From NCBI GenBank assembly GCA_003162055.1, contig PMNA01000013.1, forward strand, positions 183,064 to 247,063: DNA of 64,000 nt. Direction: 5' to 3'. Below the pieces are notes generated by a model. That model saw nothing but the letters and a program-made list of their open reading frames with translations, was not told where the DNA came from and did no database searches. A program made the position numbers and the translations under genes. Positions 2,624 through 46,399 of this stretch are shown piece after piece. Source of the stretch: Actinomycetota bacterium (GTDB taxonomy: Bacteria; Actinomycetota; Thermoleophilia; Gaiellales; Gaiellaceae). Every line of letters begins with the position of its first letter. Positions within the stretch are counted from its first letter, which is position 1.

Positions 2624-3562
2624 ATGCTCCTGAGCGAACTGGATTATGAGTTACCGCTCGAGCTGATCGCGCAACGGCCGCGTGCGAAGCGCGACGAGTC
2701 GCGCCTGCTCGTGTACGAGCGCTCGAGCGGGGAGGTGCGCCAGCGCCGCTTCAGCGAGCTGCCCGAGGAGCTGCACGGCGAGCTGGTGGTGGTGAACGAC
2801 ACCCGTGTCGTCCCGGCGCGGCTGCATCTGCGCAGGCCCACGGGCGGCCAGGTCGAGGTGCTTCTGATCGAGGCGCTCGGCGGCGGCGAGTGGGAGGCGT
2901 TGGCGCGTCCCTCGCGCAAGTTGCGCCCGGGGCAGCGTCTGGGACCGGTGGAGTTGCTCGAGGCGCTCGGGGAGGGACGCTGGCGGATCGCGCTGGAGGG
3001 CGAGCCGGCCGGAGAGACGCCGCTTCCGCCCTACATCCACGAGAAGCTGGACGACCCAGAGCGCTATCAGACCGTCTTCTCCGAGCATCTGGGCTCGGCG
3101 GCGGCGCCGACCGCCGGACTGCACTTCACGCCCGAGCTGCTCGCGCGCCTCGACGTCGAGCGGATCACCCTGCACGTCGGGCTCGACACCTTCCGTCCCG
3201 TGGCGGTGAACGACCTGCGCGAGCACCAGCTGCACGGCGAGCGCTACGAGCTGAGCTCCGGCGGGCGGCAGAGGATCGAGGCCGCGGACCGTGTGCTGGC
3301 TGTCGGGACGACGAGCGTGCGCGTGCTGGAGACGCTGGCCCGGGGCGGCCCGCTCGCGGGCAGGACGAATCTGTTCGTCTATCCGCCCTTCGAGTTCAAG
3401 CGCGTGAACGCGCTGCTGACGAACTTCCATCTGCCGCGCTCGACCCTGCTGGCGCTGGTGATGGCCTTCGCCGGCGTGGAGGAGACGCGCGAGCTGTATC
3501 GACTGGCGATCGCCGAGGGCTATCGCTTCTACTCCTTCGGCGACGCAATGCTCGTGCTCTGA
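2624..3562 (+). CDS. queA: S-adenosylmethionine:tRNA ribosyltransferase-isomerase
   Basis: Transfers and isomerises the ribosyl group of AdoMet onto preQ1-tRNA to make epoxyqueuosine in the queuosine pathway. Family motifs are clear: the N-terminal LDYELPLELIAQRP, VVVNDTRVVPARL, the SAAAPTAGLHFT segment, VGTTSVRVLE, and a C-terminal LLTNFHLPRSTLL. At 312 residues it is somewhat shorter than the Escherichia coli enzyme, but no conserved block is missing. The next gene is tgt, the enzyme that inserts preQ1 into tRNA, so the two consecutive steps are adjacent. Confidence 0.95.
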   Translation: MLLSELDYELPLELIAQRPRAKRDESRLLVYERSSGEVRQRRFSELPEELHGELVVVNDTRVVPARLHLRRPTGGQVEVLLIEALGGGEWEALARPSRKLRPGQRLGPVELLEALGEGRWRIALEGEPAGETPLPPYIHEKLDDPERYQTVFSEHLGSAAAPTAGLHFTPELLARLDVERITLHVGLDTFRPVAVNDLREHQLHGERYELSSGGRQRIEAADRVLAVGTTSVRVLETLARGGPLAGRTNLFVYPPFEFKRVNALLTNFHLPRSTLLALVMAFAGVEETRELYRLAIAEGYRFYSFGDAMLVL

Positions 3563-3687
3563 AGCTTCGTCCGCTCGATTCGGCGCGAATCCGATGCGGA
3601 ACCGTTACAGACAGGTAACGCATTCCCGGATAGCCTTCCCTCAGGGGTCATGACCGGTCCCTTGGGGGTGGTTGAGAGCACGATGGC

Positions 3688-4812
3688 GTGACGACCGAGA
3701 AACCGACATTCGAGTTGACCGCGCAGGAAGGCGAAGCGCGCGCCGGCCTGCTCAGGACGACGCACGGTGAGGTGCGGACGCCGGTCTTCATGCCGGTCGG
3801 CACCAAGGCGAGCGTGAAGAGCGTCGATCCCGACGAGTTGCGCGCGCTCGGCGCAGAGATCGTGCTCGCAAACAGCTACCACCTGCACTTCCGCCCGGGC
3901 GAGGAGCTTGTCGAGGAGCTGGGCGGCCTGCACCGCTTCATGGGCTGGTCGGGCCCGATGCTCACCGACTCCGGCGGTTTCCAGGTCTTTTCGCTGCGCG
4001 ACACGCTCCTGGCCGTGGACGAGGAAGGCGTCACCTTCCGCTCGGTCTACGACGGCGAGGCGGCCCGCTTCACGCCTGAGCTCGCGGCCGAGATTCAGTG
4101 CAAGCTGGGCGCCGACATCGCCATGTGCCTCGACGTCTGTCCGCCGGCCGGCGCTCCGCGCTCCGAGCTCGAGCGGGCGGTCGAGCTGACGACGACCTGG
4201 GCGCGGCGGCAAAGGAACGCGCCGCGGGCCGACGGGCAGCTTCTCTTCGGCATCGTCCAGGGCGGGACGGACGAGGGGTTGCGGCGGCGCTCCGCCGAGG
4301 AGCTCGCGGAGCTCGAGTTCGACGGCTACGCGCTCGGAGGCCTGAGCGTGGGGGAGGAGCGCCCGCCGATGCTGGCTGCCACGGGCTTTTCCGCACCGCT
4401 CCTGCCGGCCGATCAGCCGCGTTACTTCATGGGCATCGGTGACCCGGAGGGCGTGCTGGAAGTGATCGAGCGCGGCATCGACATGTTCGACTGCGTGCTG
4501 CCGACGCGCACCGCCCGCACCGGCTCCGCACTGACCTGGGAGGGAAGGATCAACCTCCGCAACGCCCGCTTCGCCCGCGACCAGCGTCCGCTGGAGGAAG
4601 ACTGCGACTGCCCGGCCTGCCGTCGCTTCAGCCGCGCCTACCTGCGCCATCTGGTCAACCAACAGGAGTTGCTTGGACTGCGCCTGCTCAGCCTGCACAA
4701 CCTGCGCTTCCTGATCGAGCTCGTGAGCGGCGCGCGCGAGGCGATCGTGCGCGGAGAGTTCACTCCCTACAAGCGCGACGCGCTTGCCCGCCTGGCCTCG
4801 ACCGCGGCTTGA
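3688..4812 (+). CDS. tgt: tRNA-guanine transglycosylase
   Basis: Exchanges guanine-34 of GUN anticodons for preQ1 in queuosine synthesis. The 374-residue protein has the usual length. Visible motifs include LANSYHLHFRPG, the DSGGFQVFSL active-site loop, the GGLSVGEE segment, FDCVLPTRTARTG with the catalytic Asp, and the zinc ligands CDCPACRRF followed by a downstream His. The chosen start is GTG at 3688. It follows queA by 125 bases and precedes secDF in the same direction, as in the common queA-tgt-yajC-secD-secF order, although yajC was not found here. Confidence 0.95.
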   Translation: MTTEKPTFELTAQEGEARAGLLRTTHGEVRTPVFMPVGTKASVKSVDPDELRALGAEIVLANSYHLHFRPGEELVEELGGLHRFMGWSGPMLTDSGGFQVFSLRDTLLAVDEEGVTFRSVYDGEAARFTPELAAEIQCKLGADIAMCLDVCPPAGAPRSELERAVELTTTWARRQRNAPRADGQLLFGIVQGGTDEGLRRRSAEELAELEFDGYALGGLSVGEERPPMLAATGFSAPLLPADQPRYFMGIGDPEGVLEVIERGIDMFDCVLPTRTARTGSALTWEGRINLRNARFARDQRPLEEDCDCPACRRFSRAYLRHLVNQQELLGLRLLSLHNLRFLIELVSGAREAIVRGEFTPYKRDALARLASTAA

Positions 4813-5058
4813 GCTACCGCCTCTCCGGCCCATCGTCGCTTGCCCAGGCACGCGGGCGGCGGGAGTCTGCACAATTCCGGTAGAGGCGCTCGCATCTCGT
4901 CCAGCCGGGCGCTCGATCGAAGGTCCAGCGTGCTTCCGAACTCAGCTCCCGCACTGCTTTCTCTAAACGAGCCTCCGGCGCAGGAACGCAGTAGCCCGGG
5001 CGGAACGCACGCAGACGACTACTCGAACTGCAATTCGTCAAGCTAAGCTGCACGTCCA

Positions 5059-7776
5059 GTGTCCTCGCGTCGACCCCACATCATCCTGATTCTGTTGATC
5101 GCGGCCACGCTGGTCGGGATCTTCCTCTTTGCCGCGCCGAGCTCGCCGCTGTACAAGGCGCCGGCGCTCGGGCTCGATCTCAAGGGCGGCCTGCAGGTGG
5201 TGCTGAAAGCGAAGCCCACTGGCGGTCGCAAGGCGACCAGCGCGGATATGACGCGCTCGATCAGCATCATGCGCAGGCGCGTCGACAAGCTCGGCGTCTC
5301 CGAGCCCGATGTTCGCACCCAGGGCACGGATGAGATCGTGATCGATCTGCCCGGCATAAAAGATCCGAACAGGGCGATGGCGGTGATCGGCAAGCTCGCC
5401 TCGCTACAGCTCTTCGATCTCGAGACGAAGCTCGTCAGCGGCGTCTCGGTGAACGAGGGCAATCTGGTGCCGATACCGCACAAGCTGTTCGACCTGCTCA
5501 CGCTGGTCAAGTCGAAGGTGAAGAGTGGGAATGGTTCCAGCTACTACATCTTCAACACGAATCACAATCTTGTTACCCAGACGTCGTTCAGCAATCTGAA
5601 GCAACTCCAGACCTGGCGCCGGCTGAACACGGACAAGACGAGCAAGAGCGACATAGTTCTCGGCGTGCCGAAACCGAACGAGGTCGTCTCCTGCGACCTC
5701 GTGACGAGCGCCCTCTGCCCGGGGCTCCGCACCCCTCCCAAGGCAGGTCAGACCTGGTGGTACCTCTTCTCTAAAACGCCCAACCTTACTGGCAAGGACC
5801 TGAACGCGAACGGTATCCGCGCCGAGTTCAACAGCTCCAATGGACCGCAGGTCGACCTCAGCTTCAGCTCCAACGGCAACAAGATCTTCCACGAAATCAC
5901 CCGCACCGAGTGGAACCGCGGTCAAGCGTACGGCCCCCAGTCCTTCGCGGTGGTGCTGGACCAAGAATTGATCACCTTCCCGGAGATCGATCCTAAAAAT
6001 CAATCCCTCAACGACGGCATCGACCCCGCGGTCAGCGGCGCGATCATCGAGGGAATCGGCTCGATGAGCGAGGCCAACGACATCGCGACGGTGCTGCAGA
6101 CCGGCGCGCTCCCGGTGAAGTTCACGACCGCCTCTCGGACGCAGATATCGGCCACGCTTGGTAAGGACTCGTTGCGCCAGGCGATGATCGCGGCCCTCGT
6201 CGGGCTGGCGCTGGTGGTCGTCTTCCTGCTCGTCCTCTATCGCTTCCTCGGGCTCGTGGCGGTGATGGGCCTCGGTATCTACGCGGTCTTCCTATACGGA
6301 GTGATCCTGCTCTTCAACGTCACGTTGTCGCTGCCGGGCTTCGCCGGCATGATCCTCACCATCGGCGTCGCGGCCGACGCGAACGTGGTCGTGTTCGAGC
6401 GCATCAAGGAGGAGTCTCGCGCGGGCAAATCGGTGAAGGCCGCAGTCGCCACCGGCTACGAGCGCGGCTTCCACACCATCCTCGACGCCAACGTGGTCAC
6501 CGCGATCACCGCCGCCGTGCTCTTCCTGGTCGCCACGGCGGGCGTCAAGGGCTTTGCGCTGATGCTGCTACTCGGCACCGGCATCTCGCTGATCACCGCG
6601 GTCGCCGGCACGCGCGCCATGCTGGGGCTGCTCTCCAACTTCCGCTGGTTCGACAACCCGAGCTTCATGGGCGCCCACGGAACTCAGCGCGGGCGCTGGT
6701 TGCAGATCGACTTCATGCGCAAGCGCTGGCTGTGGCTTGCGATCTCGGGAGTTGTAGTTCTGGTCAGCGCCAGCTCGCTCGGCATCAAGGGTCTCAACCT
6801 TGGCATCGATTTCAAAGGTGGGTCGCAGATCACCTTCAAGGCGAAGCCGACCCCGCTCTCGACCATACGCAACATCGTCGTCAACACGACCGGCGAGAAA
6901 AGCGCCGTTGTCCAGGGTCAGGGTAAGACGATCGGCGGCTCCGAGAGCTACAAGCAGTTCCAGATTCGTCTGCGCTCGCTCAAAGGCAATCAACAAATCC
7001 AGAACAAGCTCATGAACCAGCTCGAGACGAAGGTGCAGGCCACCAGCCCCAACATCCAGGCCGTCTCGGCCAGCTTCGCTCACGACATCACGGTGAGCGC
7101 GATCAAGGCGCTGATCGTCTCCTTCCTGCTGATCACGGCCTACATCTCGATGCGCTTCGACTTCAAGTTCGCCCTGCCGGTGATCATCGCCGTGCTGCAC
7201 GACATCGTGATCACGGTCGGCGTCTACGCGCTGACTGGCCGGGAGGTGACCACCTCCACGGTGGCCGCGGTGCTGACCGTGCTCGGCTACTCGGTCTACG
7301 ACACGATCATCATCTTCGACCGTGTTCGCGAGAACGTGCCTCTGATGCGCCAGGCGCCGTTCGCCCGCATCGCCAACGTGTCGATCTGGGAGACGATCCG
7401 CCGCTCGCTGGCTACGACCTTCATCACCCTGCTTCCGGTCGGGGCGCTCTTCTTCGCCGGCGGTGTCACGCTCAAGGACTTCGCCTTCGCGCTGCTGATC
7501 GGGATCACCTCCGGCGCCTACTCCTCGATCTTCGTGGCCGCGCCGCTGCTCACGATGTGGAAGGAGCGCGAGCCGGAGTTTGCACGGCGCCTCCATGCTC
7601 AGGACTTCCAGCGTCAGGGAAGTGAAGGACCGGTGGGCAAGGTCTTGCCGCAGCCGGCGATGGCGACGGCGACCGATCGAGCTATCGGTACTGGAATCGC
7701 GCCCGTTCCGGACGCAGCCAAGAGGGAGCGACGCCGGCAACGGCGAAGCTCGAGGCCTCATGGACGACCCCGCTAG
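5059..7776 (+). CDS. secDF: SecD-SecF fusion, protein translocase accessory subunit
   Basis: A proton-driven membrane partner of SecYEG that pulls exported proteins out of the channel. The 905-residue chain joins SecD (about 1-510) and SecF (about 550-860) in one polypeptide. SecD shows a first helix, the GLDLKGG motif, a large external domain, then five helices including GVAADANVVVFERIKEE. SecF repeats the pattern with GLNLGIDFKGGSQ and YSVYDTIIIFDRVREN. Fusion occurs in several lineages. The basic C-terminal tail runs into the next gene, which starts 17 bases before the secDF stop. No yajC lies in the 246 bases upstream of the GTG start; I see no other gene there. Confidence 0.95.
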   Translation: MSSRRPHIILILLIAATLVGIFLFAAPSSPLYKAPALGLDLKGGLQVVLKAKPTGGRKATSADMTRSISIMRRRVDKLGVSEPDVRTQGTDEIVIDLPGIKDPNRAMAVIGKLASLQLFDLETKLVSGVSVNEGNLVPIPHKLFDLLTLVKSKVKSGNGSSYYIFNTNHNLVTQTSFSNLKQLQTWRRLNTDKTSKSDIVLGVPKPNEVVSCDLVTSALCPGLRTPPKAGQTWWYLFSKTPNLTGKDLNANGIRAEFNSSNGPQVDLSFSSNGNKIFHEITRTEWNRGQAYGPQSFAVVLDQELITFPEIDPKNQSLNDGIDPAVSGAIIEGIGSMSEANDIATVLQTGALPVKFTTASRTQISATLGKDSLRQAMIAALVGLALVVVFLLVLYRFLGLVAVMGLGIYAVFLYGVILLFNVTLSLPGFAGMILTIGVAADANVVVFERIKEESRAGKSVKAAVATGYERGFHTILDANVVTAITAAVLFLVATAGVKGFALMLLLGTGISLITAVAGTRAMLGLLSNFRWFDNPSFMGAHGTQRGRWLQIDFMRKRWLWLAISGVVVLVSASSLGIKGLNLGIDFKGGSQITFKAKPTPLSTIRNIVVNTTGEKSAVVQGQGKTIGGSESYKQFQIRLRSLKGNQQIQNKLMNQLETKVQATSPNIQAVSASFAHDITVSAIKALIVSFLLITAYISMRFDFKFALPVIIAVLHDIVITVGVYALTGREVTTSTVAAVLTVLGYSVYDTIIIFDRVRENVPLMRQAPFARIANVSIWETIRRSLATTFITLLPVGALFFAGGVTLKDFAFALLIGITSGAYSSIFVAAPLLTMWKEREPEFARRLHAQDFQRQGSEGPVGKVLPQPAMATATDRAIGTGIAPVPDAAKRERRRQRRSSRPHGRPR

Positions 7777-8104
7777 CGGTTCTCGCGCTCTTGCGAGTGA
7801 GCTCGCACTGGCGGCGGTCGGCGTGGTCGCGCTGAGCGCGGAGAGGATCGATGCCCTCGCCGAAGCGATCGCTGCGCGAGGCAACATCACCAGTGTCGAC
7901 GAGGCGCGCGAGTTGCTGCGCGATCAGGTCGAGCGGTGGCGAGAAGACGCGTCGCGCGTGGGCGGTCAGGCGGCGTCCCGCGTGAGTGCGCTCGCGCGGG
8001 ATCTCGGTCTGATGACTCGCGAAGAAGCCGACGAGTTGGAGCTGCGGGTCGCTCAGCTGGAGCACCGCCTGCACCTGCTCGAGCGCGACAGCGATTCGGC
8101 GTGA
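7760..8104 (+). CDS. Phasin-like / coiled-coil small protein
   Basis: The track ORF starts at 7580 inside secDF. The likely start is ATG 7760, giving 114 residues and a 17-base overlap with secDF, which suggests translational coupling. The protein is helical, with a hydrophobic N-terminal stretch (LALAAVGVVALSAERIDALAE) and a C-terminal heptad region ending LEHRLHLLERD. This layout resembles the phasin / polyhydroxyalkanoate granule-associated family, but the match is by character only. It overlaps the next gene by four bases (GTGA). Confidence 0.65.
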   Translation: MDDPASGSRALASELALAAVGVVALSAERIDALAEAIAARGNITSVDEARELLRDQVERWREDASRVGGQAASRVSALARDLGLMTREEADELELRVAQLEHRLHLLERDSDSA

Positions 8105-9708
8105 GCCACTGGCGAGAGACCGGGAAGAGCTCGAAGCGCTTGCCCCGGCTTCGTGTCGAGCCGGTCATCGCAGCGGCTGCTGCGCTGGTCGGTGTCATCT
8201 CTCTGGTCTCGGCTCTGACTCCAGAACTGGCTGATCGCGCCAGAATCGTCAGGAGCATCCTGCCGCCGGGCTTTCCTGAGCTGGCCCGAGTGCTCGCCTT
8301 GGCCTTCGGCCTGGGCCTACTTCTACTTTCGCGCTCGCTCGCCCGCGGGCGTCAGAGGGCCTGGACGTTGGCGCTGATCGCCGTGATCGGAGTAGCGATT
8401 GCCCATCTGGCGAAGGGCCTCGATTTCGAAGAGTCGATCATCAGCCTGCTGCTCGTAGTCGCGCTTCTGCACTACCGCTCGCATTTCGATGCGCCGGGCG
8501 ATCCGGCCGCTCGACGCCCCGTTGCCGGCACCCTGCTCGCCGTGGTGGCGATGGCCTGCCTCGGTTTCGTTCTCGGTGCCCACGGCGTGTCCGATCGCGT
8601 CGGCGATCTGATCAGCGCCTGCGTAGTGCTGCTTGCTCTGTATTCGCTCGTGCTCTGGCTCGGGCCCCTGCCCGAGCAGGTCAGCCAGTCGCTGGAGGAA
8701 CGGCGCCGGGCGCGGGAGCTGGTCGAGAGCTTCGGCTCGGACAGCCTCGCCTTCTTCACGCTCAGGCGCGACAAGAGCTTCTTCTTCTCCTCCAGCGGCA
8801 ACGCCTTTCTGGCCTATCGGCTGGTCGGCAGCTCGGCGCTGATCAGCGGCGACCCGGTGGGGAAGGAGAGCGAGTTCGCGAGTCTGATCTCCGACTTCGT
8901 CGAGCGCTCGCGCGACAAAGGCTGGCGTGTGGCCGTAGTCGGCGCCGGGAGCGAGCGGCTGAGCCTCTACCGCGAGCAGGGTTTCGCGCGGGTGATCAAG
9001 ATCGGTGACGAGGCGGTCGTGCGGCCTGCTCTCTTCTCGCTCGAGGGCCGTTCGATGAGGAAGGTGCGCCAGTCGTCGCGCAAGGTCGCCGAGCGCGATG
9101 GGATCGAATTCCGCATCGTCCGCGCGAAAGACGCCGACGAGGATCTGCGTCTGCGGCTCGAGCAGATTTCCAGCGCCTGGTTGGCGGGGCGCCGCGAGCG
9201 TGGCTTCTCGATGGCGATGGACGACCTGTTCGCGGCCGGAGGCGTGTTTGCGCTGGCGCTCGACTGCGGCGACGACCCGATCGCCTTTCTACATCTGGTT
9301 CCCAGCCCGGCCGGCGGCGGCTACTCGCTCTCGTCGCAGCGGCGGTTGCCCGGCTCGCCGGGCGGCATCTCGGAGTTCCTCATCGTCGAGGCGCTGGCCT
9401 GGGCGCGCGAGGCGGGCGTGCCCGAGCTCTCGCTCAACTTCTGTGCCTTCCGCAGCCTGCTGCACATCGACGGGCAGGACGAGCGATTGCTACGACGGTT
9501 GGCGCGCGGGACGCTGCTGCGTCTCGATGTGATCTTCCAGATCGAGCGGCTGCGCACCTTCAGCCACAAGTTCCGGCCGCAGTGGCGGCCGCGCTATGTC
9601 TGTCTCGAGCGTTTGAGCGACCTGCCCGTGGTCGGGCTGGCCTATCTCCGTGCCGAGTCTCTGATCGCGGCACCGCGGTCACCAAGCCGCAGACGGCCGC
9701 CGGGATAG
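8101..9708 (+). CDS. MprF-like membrane protein with DUF2156 (lysyl-phosphatidylglycerol synthase C-terminal) domain
   Basis: The probable start is GTG 8101, overlapping the preceding stop by four bases; the track start at 7936 lies inside that gene. The 535-residue product has about six membrane helices in its first 190 residues, then a two-lobed GNAT-like cytosolic domain. Blocks typical of the DUF2156 / MprF synthase part are seen: FSSSGNAFLAYRLVGSSALISGDPVG, the VVGAGSERLSLYREQGF segment, and KFRPQWRPRYVCLE near the end. Related enzymes move an aminoacyl group from tRNA to a lipid. The substrate here cannot be read from sequence. Confidence 0.85.
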   Translation: MSHWRETGKSSKRLPRLRVEPVIAAAAALVGVISLVSALTPELADRARIVRSILPPGFPELARVLALAFGLGLLLLSRSLARGRQRAWTLALIAVIGVAIAHLAKGLDFEESIISLLLVVALLHYRSHFDAPGDPAARRPVAGTLLAVVAMACLGFVLGAHGVSDRVGDLISACVVLLALYSLVLWLGPLPEQVSQSLEERRRARELVESFGSDSLAFFTLRRDKSFFFSSSGNAFLAYRLVGSSALISGDPVGKESEFASLISDFVERSRDKGWRVAVVGAGSERLSLYREQGFARVIKIGDEAVVRPALFSLEGRSMRKVRQSSRKVAERDGIEFRIVRAKDADEDLRLRLEQISSAWLAGRRERGFSMAMDDLFAAGGVFALALDCGDDPIAFLHLVPSPAGGGYSLSSQRRLPGSPGGISEFLIVEALAWAREAGVPELSLNFCAFRSLLHIDGQDERLLRRLARGTLLRLDVIFQIERLRTFSHKFRPQWRPRYVCLERLSDLPVVGLAYLRAESLIAAPRSPSRRRPPG

Positions 9709-9762
9709 GGCTGGAGATAGCGCCTCGCTCGCCCGCTCTGAGCTTCCTGTCAAACTGCGGCT

Positions 9763-11433
9763 ATGAGCGAGCGTTCCAGCGCGAGTAATCTCGGTCGCCT
9801 CTCGGAGATCGCGCAGGTCGCGGTACGTCACGGTTTCGGCTATCTGCTAGCCCGCCATCATCTGAGCGACCTCATTCCCGGGCGGCGAAAGTTGCGCCTC
9901 GAGGAGCCGGCCGTCTCGGAGCGCGGCCGCCACCTGCGCGCGATGCTCGAGGAGCTAGGGCCGACCTTCGTCAAGTTCGGTCAGCTGCTCTCGATGCGCC
10001 CCGACCTTCTCCCGCCTGACCTGATCACGGAGTTGCGCCCGCTACAAGACGATGTCCGGCCCTTCGCCTTCAAAGAGGTTCGCCGAGTTATCCAGGAGGA
10101 TTTCGATCAGTCGCTGGAGCGGCTCTTTCTGGAGTTCGACGAAGAGCCAGTCGCAGCCGCCTCGATCGGCCAGGTGCACAGGGCGGTGCTTCCGAACGGG
10201 CACGTGGTGGCGGTCAAGGTGCAGCGGCCGGGCGCTCCCGAGCAGATCGAATCCGATCTCAGCCTTCTCTACCAGGCCTCCCGCATTCTCAAGGAGCGGG
10301 TGCGGGCGCTCGACTTCATCGACACGCGAGCGGTGGTGGAAGAGTTCGCCCGCTCGATCCATCGCGAGCTCGACTATCACCAGGAGGGCCGAAACGCCGA
10401 CATGCTGCGGCGCCAGTTCGCCGCCGACCAACACGTTCGCGTGCCGCGCGTCTACTGGACTTACACCCGCCCGCGCGTGCTCACGCTCGAGTTCCTGGAG
10501 GGAACGGAGCTGGCCGATCTCGACAGCACCGAGCTCTCGCCCGAGGATCGCCGGACGCTGGCGACGAGGGTCGCCAAGACCTGGATGGAGATGATCTTCA
10601 AGCACGGCGCTTTCCACGGCGATCCGCATCCGGCCAACGTCCTGATGCTCTCGGGACCGGACGAGATCGGACTGGTCGATTTCGGGCTCGTCGGACGGTT
10701 GTCGGACGAGGACATGGGTCGGCTCACCCGCCTGTTCATCGATGCTGCGAGCGAGAACGTCGATGCAATGTCGCAGCGCATCTCCGACCTGGGCGTGCGC
10801 TGCCCGCCCGAGCACGAGCAGAAGTTTGCGCTCGAGATGCGGGAGTTTTATTACCGCTACTACGGGGCGAGCCTGGCCGAGATCGATCCCCTGCAGGTGA
10901 TCCGTGAGGTCTTCGCGATGATCTACTCGCTCAACCTGCACCTGCCCGAGCGCTTCCTTCTGCTCGATAAAGCGCTGGCGACGCTGGCTTCGGTCGGCGC
11001 CGAGCTGACGCCCGACTTCAACGTCTTCGAAGTCGCCAGGCCCTACGCCCGTAATCTCGTGCGCCAGCGCTTCAGCCCCGAGCGGGTGGCCAAGCGGGCC
11101 CGTCGCGACAGCATCGAGCTGGTGCGCGTCGGCCGCGAGCTTCCGCAACTCGCGCACAGCGTTCTCAGCCAGACCCGCGAGGGCCGGCTCGAGATCGGCT
11201 TCGTGCACAAGGGGCTGGAGGACGTGACGCACCAGTTTTCCGTCGCCCTGAACCGGCTCGTGATCGCCTTCGTGGTCATGGGCGGGCTGATCGGCTCGAG
11301 CCTGATCGGCATCTTCGCCCACAAGGGCCCGCATTTCCTTGGCGTGAACGACGTCTCGGTAGCGGGCTTTGCGCTCTCGGGCGTGCTCGGTCTCTGGCTG
11401 CTCTGGGGCGTGATTCGCTCCGGCCGGTTGTAG
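9763..11433 (+). CDS. ABC1/AarF/UbiB atypical kinase family protein
   Basis: A 556-residue member of the UbiB/ABC1 atypical kinase family, linked in other organisms to quinone and lipid metabolism. The family signatures are present: KFGQLLSMRPDLLP (KxGQ), the AAASIGQVHRA loop that replaces the usual P-loop, the VAVKVQRPG lysine, FHGDPHPANVL, and the LVDFGLVG metal site. Two C-terminal helices (from about residue 490) should anchor it in the membrane. It lies 54 bases after the MprF-like gene on the same strand and may share its transcript. Codon use is that of the backbone. Confidence 0.9.
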   Translation: MSERSSASNLGRLSEIAQVAVRHGFGYLLARHHLSDLIPGRRKLRLEEPAVSERGRHLRAMLEELGPTFVKFGQLLSMRPDLLPPDLITELRPLQDDVRPFAFKEVRRVIQEDFDQSLERLFLEFDEEPVAAASIGQVHRAVLPNGHVVAVKVQRPGAPEQIESDLSLLYQASRILKERVRALDFIDTRAVVEEFARSIHRELDYHQEGRNADMLRRQFAADQHVRVPRVYWTYTRPRVLTLEFLEGTELADLDSTELSPEDRRTLATRVAKTWMEMIFKHGAFHGDPHPANVLMLSGPDEIGLVDFGLVGRLSDEDMGRLTRLFIDAASENVDAMSQRISDLGVRCPPEHEQKFALEMREFYYRYYGASLAEIDPLQVIREVFAMIYSLNLHLPERFLLLDKALATLASVGAELTPDFNVFEVARPYARNLVRQRFSPERVAKRARRDSIELVRVGRELPQLAHSVLSQTREGRLEIGFVHKGLEDVTHQFSVALNRLVIAFVVMGGLIGSSLIGIFAHKGPHFLGVNDVSVAGFALSGVLGLWLLWGVIRSGRL

Positions 11434-11556
11434 CGCGGAAGGCTTGAGCGGTCGCGGCCGGTCTGGACGGTTGAGGAAAGTCGGTCACGATTTAGCCGCA
11501 AATCGGCCCCAAAAGGACACTATTCGAGAGCTCGCCCAACTGTTAGTTTCGTTCGC

Positions 11557-11967
11557 ATGAGCGCAGCCGTCCTTCTCGCCGAGCCCGAGCCCCAGTTTCG
11601 CGACCTGCTCGAGCACCAGCTCTCGGTGGCGGGATTCGCGGTGGTCGGGGCCGGTGCCGGCGCCGAGGCGCTGACCCTGGCCGAGCAGGCCGCGCCCGAT
11701 CTCGTCCTGGTCGGGAACGAGCTGCCCGACGCCTCCGCGGCGGAGCTTTGCAGGCGCCTGCGAGAGGGCGAGCCGGGCAGGAGTTGGAACCGCGCGGTGC
11801 CGGTGATCGTGCTCGGCGGCGCCGAGTCCGACGCGGTCGAGCGCGTTCAGGCCTTCGAGCGCGGCTGCGACGACTACCTCACCCAGCCCTTTCACCACCA
11901 GGAGCTGGTGGGATCAATTGCACATTTCTCCGAATCGCCAATTGCACGCAGGAGCAGGGATATTTAG
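11557..11967 (+). pseudogene. Receiver-domain (response-regulator-like) gene, 3' end replaced at the island edge
   Basis: The 136-residue ORF begins as a CheY-like receiver fold but lacks the usual acidic pocket (LLAEPEP where LLVDDEP is usual). The phosphoacceptor position reads LVLVGNELP, with no Asp after the strand, and the conserved Lys is replaced (YLTQPF for YLTKPF), so it could not be phosphorylated in the normal way. The frame follows the family to about residue 120 (QELVGSI, usually ELVxRI). It then runs into unrelated sequence carrying a direct repeat and stops. I read this as a gene cut by the island. A naturally short pseudo-receiver is the alternative. Confidence 0.6.
11915..11947. 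repeat. Direct repeat CAATTGCAC at the island left edge
   Basis: CAATTGCAC occurs at 11915-11923 and again at 11939-11947, a 24-base spacing. This is exactly where the receiver gene loses similarity to its family. Spaced short repeats are typical of transposon ends, where they bind the transposase. No inverted copy was found on the far side of the transposase gene. Confidence 0.4.
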
Positions 11968-12086
11968 TGAGGACGGCGATCTGCGGATTCGCCGAACACC
12001 CGCTAAACGGCGAAAAACCGGGCGAAATTCGCGAAATCGGAGGTCGAGCGGATGTCGTCAGGGTCTAAAGACTCCCAACCACGAAA

Positions 12087-12115
12087 AGAAGGCAGGGGCT
12101 AACTCCCTGCCTTCT
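12087..12115. terminator. Hairpin terminator at the 3' side of the transposase gene
   Basis: An 11-bp perfect stem, AGAAGGCAGGG with CCCTGCCTTCT, and a 7-base loop are followed by a T/C-rich tract. It lies 28 bases beyond the stop of the leftward transposase gene and would end its message. Confidence 0.7.
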
Positions 12116-12143
12116 TCCTAGTTTTGTGAGCCTGCCGCGAGAG

Positions 12144-13724
12144 CTATGCCGCAGCGGCGAGAGCCACTGGTTCTTTCGCCCGCCGTCGCTGTTCGAGGGC
12201 GAGCGCTTGCACTAAGGCGAAAGTCATCGCGGTTTCGGTTTGAGCCTGTGCGAGCTTGCGAAACCAGCGCTTATTGCGGATGAGCGCAAAGCGGTTTGAG
12301 AGCGTTCCGTGTAAGCCCTCGTTGTGCCCAAACCGCGCATTGCCGTAAGCCTGAGAGTTCGGGTCATCGAAGGTAAGCGGGTTCCCGAAAGCCCAGTCTC
12401 GTTTGGCGACAAGTTCGCTGGGTGAACAGCGCGTGAAGTGATCGTCGGTTAGGCGCCAATCGCCAGAGCGAATAGAGATCGAGCCGCATTTAGGGCACTT
12501 ACCCTCAGAGCGGGCGATGGCATGGCCCTGGCCGTCGAGATATATGCGCTTGGCGACGCCCTTGCCACAGCAGCAGCGAATCTCGCGGTGGTGGTTCGCC
12601 TGCCAGGTCGGGTAGCCGTCGATCGGCAGCCAAGTGTGGCGGGAGTGCTCGGCACGCTTTTTACTGATCTCGCGGTCTGCGTGGCTTGTGAAGTGGATGT
12701 TCTCGACGATGCCCAAAGACCTGACCGCTGCGCGTAGCTCGGGCTTCTGAAACGCTCCATCCGCCGTAAGCACTCGGAGTTGGTTGCGCAAGTACGGCGC
12801 CGCTTCGCGAGCGAACTCACCTTGGAGAAGCTCGAGTGCCGTGTCCTTTTCGGACGCATTGAGCGGTACGAGCCGCCAAGCGATCGGAACGCCGCTCGAG
12901 GAGGAGACCATCACCAAGTTCCAGCCATGCCCGCACTTATCGGGCCCGGCGCTAGTAGGGACGAACCCGCCATCAGGGCAGGTGATCTTCTGACGGTGCC
13001 CAAATATCTTCTGGTAGCGCTCTCCATCGATTACCTCAACGGATCCGAAGTCTTTGCTCTTCTCCTTGCTCTTTCGCTCAGCGTGATAGTGGGTGAGCAC
13101 AGATGAACCATCAAGGTTGAGAAGCCGCGCCTCTTCCTGAAGCTCGGGGGTTTTGAGATGCTCGGCGCGTAGCCGGCGCTCGATCTCCATCCAAATCTCA
13201 GCGCGCCTCTCATCCGAGAAGCGTTGTTTGTGCCGGGTAATGGTCGACTGGGAAGGAACGCCATCGAGGCGGCGCAACGTCTTGACCTTATAAGGCTGGC
13301 TTTGAGCGATCCTTGGTTTATCGAACCCGAGAGTCTTTCGCGGCTCAGCGTCGTCGCCGGCTAGGGTGGCGCGGGTTTTCTTATAGGTCGTGTGCCCGCA
13401 GGCGCGACCGAAGAGCAAGACGAGTTCCAGTTCCTCAGACGTGTAAGCGAACTTGATGCCGCGCTTGGAGCGCTCGGCGTCTATCTCCTCGCAGACCGGA
13501 AGCATGACCTCGCGCCACGCGTCGGTATCGCGGACGAGGAGTGCGTGGTCGGCCTCGGAAAGACCGGCGAGTTCAGGACGCTTCTTAGCCCAGGGCACGT
13601 CACCCGGCCGCGGCTTGGGAAGATTGCCGCTCCAGCGGAGCCGGCGTATCGGGATAGGCTCTTCCTTCGACTTGCCCATGCCGCGACTCTGGCTCGATTT
13701 CGATGTGTCATGGCCTTTACTCAC
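12144..13724 (-). CDS. DDE-type transposase
   Basis: A 526-residue putative cut-and-paste transposase. A helical DNA-binding half contains the VPSQSTITRHKQRF segment. A catalytic half follows, in which three acids can be assigned: Asp in LNLDGSSVLTHYH, Asp in VLTADGAFQKPEL and Glu in GHNEGLHGTLSNRF. Between the last two is a zinc ribbon (CCCGKG and CPKCG). I do not recognise the IS family with confidence. The start may be GTG 13724 or the internal Met at 13679. The ORF looks intact. Its position just inside the left edge suggests a role in moving the island, or simply a later insertion there. Confidence 0.75.
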   Translation of the reverse strand: MSKGHDTSKSSQSRGMGKSKEEPIPIRRLRWSGNLPKPRPGDVPWAKKRPELAGLSEADHALLVRDTDAWREVMLPVCEEIDAERSKRGIKFAYTSEELELVLLFGRACGHTTYKKTRATLAGDDAEPRKTLGFDKPRIAQSQPYKVKTLRRLDGVPSQSTITRHKQRFSDERRAEIWMEIERRLRAEHLKTPELQEEARLLNLDGSSVLTHYHAERKSKEKSKDFGSVEVIDGERYQKIFGHRQKITCPDGGFVPTSAGPDKCGHGWNLVMVSSSSGVPIAWRLVPLNASEKDTALELLQGEFAREAAPYLRNQLRVLTADGAFQKPELRAAVRSLGIVENIHFTSHADREISKKRAEHSRHTWLPIDGYPTWQANHHREIRCCCGKGVAKRIYLDGQGHAIARSEGKCPKCGSISIRSGDWRLTDDHFTRCSPSELVAKRDWAFGNPLTFDDPNSQAYGNARFGHNEGLHGTLSNRFALIRNKRWFRKLAQAQTETAMTFALVQALALEQRRRAKEPVALAAAA

Positions 13725-13741
13725 CCCCGTAAGGTGTCGTC

Positions 13742-13763
13742 GGACCCCTCATGTGGGGGGTCC
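13742..13763. repeat. Inverted repeat upstream of the transposase start
   Basis: GGACCCC and GGGGTCC form a 7-bp stem about 20 bases ahead of the transposase GTG. It could be an element end, an operator or a hairpin limiting read-in. Confidence 0.35.
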
Positions 13764-13909
13764 ACGAGGTCCGAGGAGATCATCAATCACTCGGTTGAGG
13801 GTCAGAACAGAAGGTTTCCGCTTGCACGAGCCGACGATGAAGCCTCGCGAATGCGAGCTTCACGAAAAGCCTGGGATGTTGTCCGCCGTTGTACCTACAG
13901 TTGGCCAGC

Positions 13910-14356
13910 ATGCCGACCATCGAACTCTCCGACCACGTCCGTAAAACAGTCGAGAGAGAGCGGAAGGTCGTCGTAGGCCGCCTCGCTGCTCTTCAGGGGC
14001 AATCGCGTCGCCTTCACGAATTAGTCGCTCTGATCGATGGCGACCTTCAGGAGACAGCCCGTCTGATTCGCAACATAGACGAGATGCTCGGTCTTGCTCC
14101 CCAGCTCTCCCTCGAGTCTTTCCACGGCGAGCTGCGAGGCAAGAAGCTACAAGAGATAGCTATAGAGGTGCTCCGGCAGCGTCGCGGGACGGAGGCAGTC
14201 GTTCACTACAAAGAATGGTTTGACCTCCTAATTGAGGCCGGCCTTCGCATCGCAGGCCGAGACCCTCTCGCGACTTTCCTAACTCAGATCAGCCGTGCGC
14301 CGACCGTCGAATCAGTAAGGCCGCGGTCGGGTCTATACAAGCTGAGAGTCGCCTAG
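13910..14356 (+). CDS. Coiled-coil plus HARE-HTH-like winged-helix protein
   Basis: The likely start is ATG 13910 (MPTIELSDHV), giving 148 residues; the track start at 13889 is six codons earlier. The N-terminal 60 residues form a charged helix pair. The rest (GKKLQEIAIEVL, VHYKEWFDLLIEAG, DPLATFLTQISRAP, GLYKL) has the spacing of a HARE-HTH winged-helix domain, a fold often linked to restriction and chromatin-type systems. It is co-directional with the CBASS operon 124 bases downstream, and a 10-bp inverted repeat lies between. A regulator of that operon is a fair guess but unproven. Confidence 0.6.
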   Translation: MPTIELSDHVRKTVERERKVVVGRLAALQGQSRRLHELVALIDGDLQETARLIRNIDEMLGLAPQLSLESFHGELRGKKLQEIAIEVLRQRRGTEAVVHYKEWFDLLIEAGLRIAGRDPLATFLTQISRAPTVESVRPRSGLYKLRVA

Positions 14357-14398
14357 ATACGCGAGACACGCTGCTCCGTCCGGGCGTCGTGCTACGAC

Positions 14399-14436
14399 TG
14401 CCGTACCTACATACACGTACATTCGCAGGTACGGCA
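14399..14436. promoter_or_regulatory. 10-bp inverted repeat upstream of the CBASS operon
   Basis: TGCCGTACCT at 14399-14408 is exactly matched by AGGTACGGCA at 14427-14436, with 18 bases between that also contain ACGTAC. It sits 44 bases before the first CBASS start codon. It could be a two-half-site operator or an RNA stem in the leader. Confidence 0.5.
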
Positions 14437-14479
14437 CCTCGACTGACTTCGCCGTACTACTTGCGCAAGGAGAAGTCAC

Positions 14480-15463
14480 ATGGATATCAACGCCGCCTTC
14501 GACAAGCTCCAGCAAAACGTCAACGCCTCACCGGAGGCTGTTACGGAGGCGCGTCGCAGGCGCGACCTCTTTCGCGGCACGTTCGGTAGCGAAGACGATG
14601 TCGAGGAGACCGTTCCATCGGGATCCTTCGCACGAGGGAGCCAAAACGACCCTATTAACGACGTCGACATCATCGTCGTCTATGACGAGACTGAACACGA
14701 AGGATGGGGCACGCCAGGGCCGTCCGCGGAAGAGGCCCTCACCCATGTCCAGGATCGGGTAAAAGCGCTACTCGGCGTGTCCGAGGGTAGCGTCTCCAAA
14801 GAAGTGCGCCTGACCCGCGTTCAGAACCATTCCGTGAAATGCTGGCTTGACGACCCGGATGCAAAGCTGGCATTCACGGTCGATGTAACACCCGCCCTGC
14901 GTGTCGACGAAGAGACGCTCCTCATCCCGGAGAAGAATTCGAGCTGTTGGATCCAGACCGCTCCGGAGCACCTGAATCGCGTCATCGCTGAACGCCACAC
15001 TGACTGGAACAAATTCGTCGGCCAAGTTCGTGTCGTGAAGCGCTGGGGCGCTGACCAGCAGACAGAAATGAAGTCGCTTCTACTGGAGGTGCTCGCCCTT
15101 CATCACCTACCCAAAGAAACACGCTCCAAGGCGTTGGCGCGCTTCTTTGCGGCGGGCGCGAGTGCCGTCCTCAGCCCAGTAGAAGATCCCGCCGGTCTCT
15201 GCGGTGAGATTCAGCCTGACCTCGACCGCGATGCGGCCGCCCGACACTTCACGAAGGCTTCCGAAGCGGCCTGGCGTGCTGTCGAGGCCGAAGATCGCGG
15301 AGAGACAGACCGCGCCGCATGTCTATGGCGCAGCATCTTCGGCGACATCTTTCCGGAGCCTCCCGGTGGATGCAGCAACGGAAACGGAGCGAAAGCGGTC
15401 GGAGGCGCTGCAGCTAGCGTCCACCGACGACCCATACGGGATGCTCCCCAAGGTGGGCAGTGA
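14480..15463 (+). CDS. CBASS CD-NTase (cyclic oligonucleotide synthase)
   Basis: The signal-generating enzyme of a CBASS anti-phage system, which would make a cyclic di- or oligonucleotide after infection. In 327 residues the nucleotidyltransferase core is clear: GSFARGS at residues 48-54, the metal pair DVD at 61-63 and the third acid in FTVDVTPA near 135. A good AAGGAG ribosome-binding site precedes ATG 14480. The last 40 residues are Gly/Ala-rich and end in GGQ. In that stretch the neighbouring frame has the higher third-position GC, so a frameshift or a poorly conserved tail is possible. The gene overlaps the E2 gene by four bases (GTGA). Confidence 0.88.
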   Translation: MDINAAFDKLQQNVNASPEAVTEARRRRDLFRGTFGSEDDVEETVPSGSFARGSQNDPINDVDIIVVYDETEHEGWGTPGPSAEEALTHVQDRVKALLGVSEGSVSKEVRLTRVQNHSVKCWLDDPDAKLAFTVDVTPALRVDEETLLIPEKNSSCWIQTAPEHLNRVIAERHTDWNKFVGQVRVVKRWGADQQTEMKSLLLEVLALHHLPKETRSKALARFFAAGASAVLSPVEDPAGLCGEIQPDLDRDAAARHFTKASEAAWRAVEAEDRGETDRAACLWRSIFGDIFPEPPGGCSNGNGAKAVGGAAASVHRRPIRDAPQGGQ

Positions 15464-15972
15464 ACGATTGGCCTCGGCAGACATGGATCGAGGCCGAGCC
15501 GAAACGCGCGGATCGAGAGCGAGCGGCAATGGCCAGCCTTGCGCCAGATATGGAGTGGAGTGAAGTGTCGCCGGCTGGCGGCTGGGAAGGGTATGCGCCT
15601 CTCTGGCCAATCGCGCGAGCGAAACCACGAAAGCTCAAGGGGCTTGTCGAGGGGCGGAGACTGCGTTTATGCGTTCTCTACTCACAGGGCTTTCCGATGG
15701 CCCAACCGGTACTTTTCCCGCTCGATCCTGAGCCGCCCGTTGAGCGACGGACTGTCCACGATTGGCACCTGAACGGAGACGGAAGCCTTTGCCTACTCCG
15801 GACGGTCGATCTCTGGAACGGTCGTGAAACTGCAGCCGATCTGGTCGTGAAAGCGTCCGGATGGTTCATCGAGTACATGTTGATGGAGCGAGGGCTAATT
15901 GAGGCAATGACCGAGAACGGCATCCATTCAAATAAGTCCCTAGACGCTCTGATTAGGGGTCTCGACCTGTGA
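15460..15972 (+). CDS. CBASS-associated E2-like conjugating enzyme
   Basis: A 170-residue prokaryotic ubiquitin-conjugating-like protein. The segment VHDWHLNGDGSLCLL places the catalytic Cys at residue 111, behind the His/Asn/Gly pattern typical of these E2 families. It is a separate gene, not fused to the E1 as in classical Cap2. Start GTG 15460 overlaps the CD-NTase stop, and its own stop overlaps the next start (GTGA), so translation is coupled. By analogy with Cap2 it should help attach the CD-NTase C-terminus to a target, raising cyclase activity. Confidence 0.82.
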   Translation: MNDWPRQTWIEAEPKRADRERAAMASLAPDMEWSEVSPAGGWEGYAPLWPIARAKPRKLKGLVEGRRLRLCVLYSQGFPMAQPVLFPLDPEPPVERRTVHDWHLNGDGSLCLLRTVDLWNGRETAADLVVKASGWFIEYMLMERGLIEAMTENGIHSNKSLDALIRGLDL

Positions 15973-17249
15973 ACTACGATTACGCACTCCTACCGCGAGC
16001 CGTTGCGGATGCAATCTTGGCGTACGGTGGTTCGTGGGGACATCTCAATACGCGTTTCGACCCAGGCGAGGGTCTCATCGTCGTGACTGGCTACTCGAAG
16101 GGACAAAGTTCAGGGCGTTCCACAGTCCAGGTGCCTTGGCTGGATGATCACTACTCGAAGCCGGTCTCCGTATCGCCGTTCTCAGGTTATTGGTATCGAG
16201 CTGACCCTGAGCTACACGTCCTGGGTTATCAAGCACATCGCCGAGCGAGTGCTGTCACGCTCGATTTCTTTCGGGCAAACGTCAAGGGCTTTCGAAGCCC
16301 GCACCAGACGCTTGCGACGTTCGTGATCACCGTTTGCGAAGTGGAGGGCCAACCAGACTTCGCGGGCTGGGGAGTCACCGTGGACGGTGCAGCAAGGTTT
16401 TCCCTCGATGTCGTTGATGATGATCCCGATCTCTTTCTACCTCTCGGAGAAGCCTGGCCACGCGAAAAGTTGGCGAGCCCGCTAGTCACTGTTATAGGTG
16501 TCGGCAGTATCGGGAGCGCCGCTTGCGAGGCCCTCTCTGGTTATGCCATCCGGAATCTGGCGCTGGTGGACCCGGATCGACTCAAGGAACACAACTTCGC
16601 TCGGCACCGGGCTAATCCACGAGACATAGGACGGTACAAAGTCAACGCCGTCGCCAACGCGTTGCAAGAGCGCGATAAGCGATTAAAGGTCGAGCGCTAC
16701 CCGCTTGATGTTGTCCATGACGCGGACACTATGCGTCCACTGTTTCGACGAAGCTCATCCATCCTCGTGTGCTCGGACGGGGTTGAGTCTCGCCGAGTTG
16801 CCAATCACTTGGCATGCCGCGCCGGCACCCGTGTTGTCTTCGCGTGTGTCCTGGAAGACGGAGCCTTCGGAGAAGTGCTTCAGGTAAGACCCGGGGTAAC
16901 GGCGTGCCTTTTCTGCTCCAGAGAGCAACTCGTCGAGAAAGGAGCGATGGATCCAGAGCCGAGCCTCGATGCCGGATACACCACGGGCCAGCGCCACCTC
17001 CCAATGACGGCGGTTGGGGGCGACCTCGATTTTGTCGGGAAGTTCGCGGCTCGTGTTGCGGTTTCGGGCATTCTCGAGTCGCTCGGTTATTTAAAAGAGA
17101 AGCTGCCCGGAGACCAAGCCGTCATTGGCTTGCGCCCGCCTCTAGAAAAAGCAGAAGCGCCCTTCGACGTCGAGCACACGCTCATGGTCTCTTGGAACTC
17201 ACTCGGGCGTCCGAGCCCAGACTGTCCGAGCTGCGGAGGAGAGTCGTGA
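15969..17249 (+). CDS. CBASS-associated E1-like (ThiF fold) activating enzyme
   Basis: A 426-residue adenylating enzyme. The first 170 residues form a domain I do not recognise. The ThiF/E1 Rossmann domain follows, with VIGVGSIGS at about 175-183, LVDPDRLKEHNFARH, and NHLACRAGTRVVFACV. Two CxxC pairs (CLFC and, at the end, CPSC) should hold zinc. The first pair may also lie near the catalytic Cys. Paired with the separate E2, it would do the job of Cap2. It overlaps its neighbours by four bases on both sides, so it belongs to one coupled operon. Confidence 0.85.
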   Translation: MNYDYALLPRAVADAILAYGGSWGHLNTRFDPGEGLIVVTGYSKGQSSGRSTVQVPWLDDHYSKPVSVSPFSGYWYRADPELHVLGYQAHRRASAVTLDFFRANVKGFRSPHQTLATFVITVCEVEGQPDFAGWGVTVDGAARFSLDVVDDDPDLFLPLGEAWPREKLASPLVTVIGVGSIGSAACEALSGYAIRNLALVDPDRLKEHNFARHRANPRDIGRYKVNAVANALQERDKRLKVERYPLDVVHDADTMRPLFRRSSSILVCSDGVESRRVANHLACRAGTRVVFACVLEDGAFGEVLQVRPGVTACLFCSREQLVEKGAMDPEPSLDAGYTTGQRHLPMTAVGGDLDFVGKFAARVAVSGILESLGYLKEKLPGDQAVIGLRPPLEKAEAPFDVEHTLMVSWNSLGRPSPDCPSCGGES

Positions 17250-17773
17250 CAGGGAAGGTACGGATCGCGTCTGGAGCGGTCGCAACTATTGCGGCCAAAG
17301 CCGCTGCGTCTTCGGACGGCTTCGAGACCGGGGGGATACTTCTGGGATTCGAGGCGAGTTGGCTTGGCGAGGTGCTAGTTCTCGAAGCTGGCGGTCCTGG
17401 CCCAAACGCAGAACGACGACGCGATTTCTTCTGTCGCGACCTCGGACACGCGCAACGCCTCGCGAACGATGCCTTCTTACGCACGACTGCACGATGGATA
17501 GGCGAGTGGCACACACATCCCTACGGCCCTCTCGCGCCCAGCCGCAAAGACCTCCGAACCTACCGGCGGTTCTTGCGAGACCCAGAACTCGGATTCAAGA
17601 GCTTCATCGCCGTTATAGTCGGATCGAACGACGGAGAATGGAAAAAGCCGCGCGCTGCCGCATGGCTAATCGGCTTGCGCCGGGTTCTTCCAGCCCTGCT
17701 TCTTCCGGGCCTTGACCGCCTCGACATTGTCTTGGAGAACTCGCCGATCGATGGGAGAGACGATGACCGCTGA
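17246..17773 (+). CDS. cap3: CBASS JAB/MPN+ metallopeptidase (Cap3-like)
   Basis: A 175-residue zinc deconjugating peptidase. The JAMM motif is complete: Glu in FETGGILLG (residue 27), then HTHPYGPLAPSRKD with His 89, His 91, Ser 99 and Asp 102. The start is GTG 17246, overlapping the E1 stop; the track ORF start at 16814 lies inside the E1 gene. In type II CBASS, Cap3 removes the isopeptide-linked target from the CD-NTase. It overlaps the effector gene by 11 bases. Confidence 0.85.
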   Translation: MTGKVRIASGAVATIAAKAAASSDGFETGGILLGFEASWLGEVLVLEAGGPGPNAERRRDFFCRDLGHAQRLANDAFLRTTARWIGEWHTHPYGPLAPSRKDLRTYRRFLRDPELGFKSFIAVIVGSNDGEWKKPRAAAWLIGLRRVLPALLLPGLDRLDIVLENSPIDGRDDDR

Positions 17774-19223
17774 ATACGGTCTTCCAAGCCCGAGCGGAGC
17801 GCTTATCGCCGGATATGACTACCAGCACCTCTTCACATGGCTTCAGGCGCTGGGGCTACTTCGGGAAGAGGAAGGCATAACGCGCATCGGGCTTGAAGTC
17901 GGCGGCCAACACAACGTCGACGATCTCGTTGTTCATCACAAGGAACCCCCGACTCTCTACTACCAGGTCAAGTTTGTAATGGCCCAAGGAGAACCTCTCA
18001 GCCACGAGTGGTTTACCGATTCGGGCGGAGCAACTAAAAGTCCGCTACAACGCTTTTACGAGAGCTTCGTCAAGCTCTCCGATGGTGACGTTCGCCCGGA
18101 GATGGCCTTGGAGACGAATCGCTGGCCGGTCGCCGGCGACCCGATACTGAGCTACGTGGATGGCCAGACGCACAAGTTAGTCCCGCGCCTCCCGCTAGCC
18201 GCGGCTGGCTCAGCCTCCGGGGCAGTACGGCGCGAGTGGGCGGAGCATCTAGGGATTGACGAGCCTGCGCTCTACGAGATGCTCGGGCATCTCGCCATCT
18301 GCGCCGGGCGAGGCTCGCTCGAAGATCTCCGCGAACGCTGCTGCTGGCGTATGTGCTCGGTTGGCCTGCTCGATGATCTGGATTCGGTCGATGTCGGCAT
18401 GGGCGAGATACGCCGCCTCATCCGCGAGGGTGTTCGCGCACTTGACGTCGAACGTCTGAGGGCGATCATCGCCAGTAAGCGACTTGAGCGGGGCGCTGCG
18501 CGTGCCACGCTTCTTGTCCAGCAGATAAAGAAAGATCCGTGGCCAGAACTCGCGACCGCCTCTGTCGACTGGGTTGATCTGTTCGAGGGAGATGCTCCCG
18601 AGGAGCGACGGCAGCTTCGCGACCCGAGTGGATGGAACGGCGTCCTTCGTTCTCAGCTACGTGAGGCTCGTGCGGAGATTGAACGCAGTGGCCTTCTCGA
18701 CGTTCTAGTCGTCGGGGCGATGCGACTGTCCACTGGCCTAGTCGTTGGTGCCGAGATGGCCAATGTCGCCGGGTTCTCAGTGGCGATTCGTCAAGGCGAT
18801 GAAGAGTGGTCGAGCACCGGAGAGAAGGGAAAGGCTGACCTCGAGGTAGAGAGCACTGAGGTCGGGGCGGGGCAAGAACTCGCTATCGGCATCAGTATCG
18901 CCACTGACCTAAGCGAGGACGTTCTTCCCTTCCTCGAAAACGAGGCTGCCACCGTTGGCCGGTTCGTGAACTTCCATCTCGCGTGCGGCGTCGGGCGAGA
19001 CGTAATCAGAGGGTCTGCGGAGGCTCGTGCGCTAGCTCAGTACCTGCTCGATGCAATTAGGAGCGCTAGCCGTGGATTCAACCGTGTCCACCTGTTCGTC
19101 GCCTGTCCACTGGGTCTAGCGCTTATGCTCGGCCACGTCTGGAATCGGATGCCCGAGACTCAGCTCTACGACGATCTCGGCTATGGGCGAGGATACGCGC
19201 CGACGTTCTTTTTGCACGGCTAG
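17763..19223 (+). CDS. cap4: Cap4-like effector: DUF4297-type nuclease plus SAVED domain
   Basis: The killing component of the CBASS operon. The preferred start is ATG 17763 (MTAEYGLPSPSG), giving 486 residues. The N-terminal domain shows the DUF4297 dsDNA endonuclease pattern: GYDYQHLFTWLQAL, NVDDLVV and YYQVKF (the D...QxK form of a PD-(D/E)XK site). The C-terminal part ends with VHLFVACPLGLALMLGHVW and GRGYAPTFFL, as in the ligand-binding SAVED domain. Binding of the cyclic product would trigger indiscriminate DNA cutting. It is the last gene of the operon; no clear hairpin terminator was seen. Confidence 0.83.
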   Translation: MTAEYGLPSPSGALIAGYDYQHLFTWLQALGLLREEEGITRIGLEVGGQHNVDDLVVHHKEPPTLYYQVKFVMAQGEPLSHEWFTDSGGATKSPLQRFYESFVKLSDGDVRPEMALETNRWPVAGDPILSYVDGQTHKLVPRLPLAAAGSASGAVRREWAEHLGIDEPALYEMLGHLAICAGRGSLEDLRERCCWRMCSVGLLDDLDSVDVGMGEIRRLIREGVRALDVERLRAIIASKRLERGAARATLLVQQIKKDPWPELATASVDWVDLFEGDAPEERRQLRDPSGWNGVLRSQLREARAEIERSGLLDVLVVGAMRLSTGLVVGAEMANVAGFSVAIRQGDEEWSSTGEKGKADLEVESTEVGAGQELAIGISIATDLSEDVLPFLENEAATVGRFVNFHLACGVGRDVIRGSAEARALAQYLLDAIRSASRGFNRVHLFVACPLGLALMLGHVWNRMPETQLYDDLGYGRGYAPTFFLHG

Positions 19224-28042: not shown

Positions 28043-28158
28043 AGCTCATGGGAGAGCTGAGAGCGCTAACTTAGGCCTATCGATACCCTGAGTCGTGGGG
28101 AGAATGGGTACCTGGCCAAAACCGGGCCGCAATCCGGCGCGCTTTGTATCGTGGACCT

Positions 28159-29760: not shown

Positions 29761-29809
29761 TACCTGCCGCTGAGCGAGGGACGGGGCCCCGCATGGCGAA
29801 GATACTGGC

Positions 29810-46122: not shown

Positions 46123-46154
46123 CCGCGGTGACGCGGAGGAGAACTCAAACCGGA

Positions 46155-46376: not shown

Positions 46377-46399
46377 TAGAAAGGTTTAGGAGCGAGTTA

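Follow-up and report, generated by a model that had tools for sequence, protein, structure and literature searches.

The large island that begins at base 11910 of the 64,000-nucleotide stretch of DNA analysed here (the window) is very probably a 58.6-kb DDE transposon, one of a family that inserts site-specifically and in one orientation at the E-L-[L/V] codons of a single response-regulator (RR) ortholog of the Thermoleophilia. The window covers positions 183064–247063 of a 303,624-bp contig in a draft genome of 2.16 Mb. Relatives recovered by searching are MAGs labelled Thermoleophilia, Gaiellaceae, or Actinomycetota, and all host genomes in the analysis are draft assemblies or MAGs. The family is read here as one of undescribed site-specific DDE transposons; it was not found described in literature searches, within the limits of open-access papers.

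A preliminary description of the window had proposed that a large accessory island starts within a receiver-like gene, and the break could be placed exactly. An OmpR-type RR gene is broken at base 11910, directly 3' of GAGCTGGT, with the break 3' of base 11909 and the sequence across it reading GAGCTGGT/GGGATC. The 5' part of the gene, which encodes the receiver domain, was assigned to 11557–11909 (plus strand) by sequence comparison. The ORF at 11557–11967 matches the RR family up to E-L-V and loses the match at residue 121–122. It had been described as following its family up to the last helix, which holds as far as E-L-V, but the residues GSI and the rest of the ORF are already encoded by the inserted element. 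The missing C-terminal half was recovered by genome search on the same contig, 58.6 kb from the break, at contig position 253621 (70558 in coordinates extended beyond the window), where it is 96% identical. This 3' part, which encodes the DNA-binding domain, occupies extended coordinates 70553–70902, outside the window. The element extends past the window, in agreement with the earlier figure of at least 52 kb for the island. It spans 11910–70552 (58,643 bp), of which 11910–64000 (no strand assigned) lies inside the window and the true end is at extended coordinate 70552. The reported shift in base composition across the edge was likewise recovered, with a GC content of 60–70% left of the break versus 51–64% right of it.

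Both junctions are defined, as GAGCTGGT/GGGATCAATTGCAC...GTGCAATTGAGCCC/TGGTCGCCCGC. The target-site duplication, which the preliminary description had suggested looking for, is 4 bp long (TGGT), with its left copy at 11906–11909 (no strand assigned) and its right copy at 70553–70556, outside the window. Imperfect terminal inverted repeats bound the element, with GGGATCAATTGCAC at the left (11910–11923, plus strand) and GGGCTCAATTGCAC at the right end read inwards. A probable transposase-binding motif, CAATTGCAC, occurs at 11915–11923 and again 24 bp inward at 11939–11947 (both plus strand), and one inverted copy was found at extended coordinate 70539; no further copies are present in 120.5 kb. 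When a 200-bp stretch is shuffled, a 9-mer repeated at 24-bp spacing arises in ∼0.06% of cases. Because the motif is confined to the element ends, the direct repeat described earlier can be identified with the element's terminal motif: the repeat and its spacing are real, but the sequence that contains it is the terminal repeat and not unrelated sequence. Judged by its sequence, the island is a single transposon with both ends, inverted repeats, and a 4-bp duplication.

Relatives that lack the island were also found. In the same genus, the RR continues via ARIRAVLRRAAPDARQRL... and encodes a whole protein of ∼232 aa, with receiver and DNA-binding domains, in a locus whose flanks are collinear on either side. 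No relative was seen to carry as an intact gene the 136-residue ORF that had been named as the observation to set against an island. At three loci with an intact RR (L040, L041, and L042), both flanks align and the alignment jumps from 11909–11911 to 70552; read from these alignments, the three are clean empty sites. The same jump is seen at L052, in which the intact RR ORF is missing owing to an assembly gap. In L053 (PLBK01000005.1, ∼10480–10700), the RR lacks its 3' part and no element is visible there, possibly through a deletion or other rearrangement.

Adjoining the left end is a DDE-type transposase of 526 aa (12144–13724, minus strand). Residues D205, D322, and E469 are invariant across nine transposase members and probably form the catalytic triad. 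An equally invariant Cys4 zinc ribbon (C384, C386, C410, and C413) lies between D322 and E469, and a helical region is found at the N terminus. No Pfam profile scores above cut-off with the transposase, Transposase_mut gives no match, and a PDB sequence search likewise returned none. Weak sub-threshold matches to DDE_Tnp_1 and to NCBIfam IS5_3 were each seen in 5 of the 9 members; for the IS5 family NF033580, the score of 29.1 bits lies below the cut-off of 110, with E ≤ 0.01 in 5 of 9 members. The best Foldseek hits of the AlphaFold model (pTM 0.80) are Mos1 mariner, piggyBac, Sleeping Beauty, and retroviral integrases (best E of 4e-4, low TM-score), and the modelled protein falls within the RNase-H-like fold, with Foldseek scores that are modest.

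Transposase homologues were found in 5 of 103 same-family genomes, own genome included, and in 10 of 399 sampled genomes of the class Thermoleophilia. A sample of 397 genomes from across the phylum gave no hits except in Thermoleophilia, and searches of plasmid, phage, and IMG/VR sequences returned no relatives. Just two branches of the transposase tree are well supported, and deep branching was not read from it. In 8 of the 10 genomes, the left end lies at the identical base of the same orthologous RR gene and in the same orientation, directly 3' of GA[GA][CT]T[GC][CG]T, with the transposase end facing the RR 5' part. The preliminary description could not have known that a single transposon makes up the island, or that its family, with distant members in other soil actinobacteria, has hit this base repeatedly. 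The interrupted receivers trace to the same orthologous RR, with the C-terminal signature TRT[LV][DE][SA]HxxRLRxKL...NxWGxGYRL, and each located element uses this ortholog; nine OmpR-type DNA-binding domains are encoded in the window's genome. RR paralogs share near-identical core DNA, e.g. GAGTTGCTGGCACGC, so recognition must reach beyond the core.

Paired ends and a 4-bp duplication (TGGT, TGCT, or TCCT) were recovered for seven elements. Five of these lie on single contigs, namely the window's own (W; TGGT, 58,643 bp) and those of genomes G294 (TGCT), G386 (TGCT), G033 (TCCT), and G152 (TCCT), the five lengths being 58,643, 22,644, 15,396, 14,820, and 32,889 bp. In G001 and G036 (both TGCT), the two ends are on different contigs; the G001 pieces total ∼70 kb, giving element sizes from 14.8 kb to ∼70 kb. 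G294 fixes the length of the duplication at 4 bp, since the adjacent base is not shared between its two ends (GAGTTGCT at the left versus CTGCT at the right). Element ends start with GGG or similar, and the left ends of the relatives carry a second motif copy at 23–25-bp spacing, except in G386. G031 provides a left end only, at the same RR base. The exceptions are G184, in which the transposase is broken and not located at the RR, and G315, in which a transposase homologue is present and the RR ortholog was not found in the genome. The G315 homologue lies on contig C106, >40 kb from one contig end.

A shared site could in principle reflect elements that are not site-specific and a single ancient insertion passed down within the class, to which all hosts belong. 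This is highly improbable, because the gene is intact in most sister species, the cut RR halves of the window's genome are still 91–96% identical to the intact gene, and the elements differ in duplication sequence, cargo, and size, with transposases mostly 30–50% identical to one another. In the genus of G294 and G152, the RR receiver is present in 16 of 18 genomes, and these two are the sole transposase carriers; only they have a short RR frame (137 and 130 aa versus at least 237 aa; 16 receiver genomes). A short frame confined to transposase carriers cannot be explained by a single old insertion that was simply inherited, and such descent is also refuted by the empty sites in same-genus sister species. 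A conventional tyrosine or serine recombinase integrase island, with an insertion sequence at its end by chance, is very improbable as well. This RR gene is indeed broken by serine-recombinase elements in G386 and G184, at positions other than the one used here, but the island ORFs scanned with Pfam yielded no recombinase, the inverted repeats and 4-bp duplication are at the outermost island ends, and the transposase accompanies the left end in eight genomes. Tn7 and Tn7-like transposons, including the AbaR-type islands in comM, carry large cargo into one conserved site in one orientation, have repeated end motifs, and are marked by a 5-bp target duplication and 5'-TGT ends. The present family is like Tn7 in its one fixed chromosomal target, its one orientation (the RR base is identical for eight left ends), and its large cargo; unlike Tn7, it has a single IS5-like DDE transposase, a 4-bp duplication, and GGG ends, and its target lies within an RR gene. 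If the element were Tn7-like or CRISPR-associated and were directed to the RR gene by an RNA guide, it would show the same behaviour of large cargo, one site, one orientation, and repeated end motifs, but this is scarcely credible here. TnsA, TnsB, TnsC, and TniQ (TnsD) have no Pfam match in the scanned window and right-end ORFs (small ORFs partly covered), the ends are GGG and not TGT, and the duplication is 4 and not 5 bp. There is also no Rfam match in window positions 11500–64000, and in the search for a guide-like match to the RR target, no stretch of five elements beats control stretches.

How the target is chosen is a closer question, on which a second core gene bears. This gene, p224 (35701–36375, plus strand), encodes a 224-aa protein with PF18780 (HNH_repeat) and is a candidate for a target- or end-binding protein. 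It is present in 5 of 5 single-contig elements, although split by another insertion in G152, and also in the G184 remnant. All eight strong matches to p224 in the 399 genomes are in transposase-bearing ones (hypergeometric p ∼3e-15, relatedness ignored); weak matches were seen in G249, G276, G316, and G355, genomes without the transposase. At the right end, the HTH protein R375 (extended coordinates 69267–70394) has excisionase-like and DNA-binding PHROG matches. R375 directly adjoins the right end in W, G033, and G386, is within several kb of it in G001, is broken in G184, and was not found in G294 and G152; its AlphaFold model (pLDDT 48) was too poor for use. From the co-occurrence and the DNA-binding-type domain, we infer that p224 may act as target selector. 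In the proposed mechanism, the left-end transposase would bind the repeated terminal motif, at two sites on the left and one on the right, an asymmetry that could set insertion orientation, and would cut and join the ends with a 4-bp stagger. p224, in some elements aided by R375, would read the RR sequence and bring the transposase there. Insertion would then land directly 3' of GAGCTGNT in the RR site, with a 4-bp duplication, splitting the regulator and giving defence and other cargo a fixed site. It is tentatively proposed, at a little short of an even chance, that this is a new class-wide family whose IS5-like DDE transposase is brought to one codon of one regulator gene by the small HNH-repeat protein p224, without an AAA+ regulator, TniQ, or guide RNA, and that this way of targeting is unrelated to Tn7. 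A serious rival, possible if somewhat doubtful, is that the transposase alone picks the target via its own DNA-binding parts, with p224 and R375 serving regulation, end binding, or excision. Such targeting has been argued for a single-protein site-specific DDE element (PMC10132070), the transposase is large, with its N-terminal helical region and zinc ribbon, and G031 is hit at the same RR base although p224 was not found there. G031 is, however, a draft from whose assembly p224 may have been lost, and the presence of p224 in every single-contig element and the confinement of its strong scores to transposase-bearing genomes argue against transposase-alone targeting and are consistent with steering by p224.

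The closest documented counterpart among large DDE elements is the p-MULT (Mutator-type) group, e.g. the TnGBS ICEs, in which elements of up to 52 kb are moved with insertion specificity and end asymmetry sets orientation; p-MULT elements with known specificity target sites upstream of sigma-A promoters and make 8–9-bp duplications (PMC3942029). The present family shares with these a DDE transposase that moves a large element, insertion specificity, and end asymmetry, but it targets a codon of one gene, makes a 4-bp duplication, and has no Mutator-type Pfam match. The dif-targeting IS1202 family consists of 1.5-kb elements with a TnsB-like transposase, a 5-bp duplication, and no cargo (PMC10132070). 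It resembles the present elements as a site-specific DDE element with constant orientation and an extra internal transposase-binding site (here predicted), whereas the latter have a 4-bp duplication, an RR target instead of dif, and a length of 15 to ∼70 kb with cargo. The likeness to IS5/IS4-like insertion sequences is limited to weak sub-threshold profile matches (IS5_3 and DDE_Tnp_1); in contrast to these, the transposase is far longer and has a zinc-ribbon insert, the elements carry cargo over 15 to ∼70 kb, and the target is strict.

Few DDE transposons are strictly site-specific, and several proteins are needed by Tn7, the best studied of them. In deeply diverged hosts, the family described here appears to place 15 to ∼70 kb at one exact codon of a conserved gene, apparently with as few as two proteins in common. 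If true, this would be a compact new system for how a DDE transposase gets aimed, a possible tool for large-DNA insertion, and, for an uncultured class about which little is known, a constant point from which defence islands can be located. The RR gene is, moreover, an integration hotspot, as two serine-recombinase elements also use it at other positions. In G386 (contig C64, oriented coordinates 42282–92035), the same RR has a second insertion of ∼50 kb further 3' (LG/STRT), with a large serine recombinase adjoining its left edge. In G184 (contig C65; L210, G184:C65:24000-43000), the RR ortholog is split at KP/F codons by an element of ∼12.7 kb (∼2838–15496), which has a large serine recombinase and a prohead-protease match and marks a third insertion position in the gene. 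The RR 3' part in G001 (contig C22, reverse complement 67582–67870) has lost its last residues, which fits a decaying gene.

The cargo of the window's element includes defence genes. A CBASS operon of cyclase, E2, E1, and SAVED-nuclease effector (14480–19223, plus strand) is followed by an Mrr-type restriction endonuclease domain protein (22338–23399, minus strand) and by an N6-methyltransferase with a XamI-like restriction endonuclease (28144–30760, plus strand). A TIR-domain protein with a ThsB-like hit lies at 50462–51163 (minus strand). Between these, a cell-wall cluster (43679–48730, plus strand) encodes a hydrolase, a MurF-like protein, a D-Ala–D-Ala ligase family member, a HEAT protein, and a D-Ala-D-Ala dipeptidase family member; it recalls glycopeptide-resistance sets, yet falls under the curated van cut-offs. 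A VWA protein, a tubulin-like protein, and a large unknown protein form one run at 55117–63009 (plus strand), in which the tubulin-like member is a Tubulin_2 protein; the VWA/Tubulin_2 run has no PADLOC match. At or beyond the right edge of the window are a Castor/Pollux-type channel protein, an HD-domain protein, an AAA ATPase, and an IspF-type protein. The last of these, an IspF-type (YgbB) isoprenoid-synthesis protein (L096:4778-5263, extended coordinates 68778–69263), lies inside the element near its right end.
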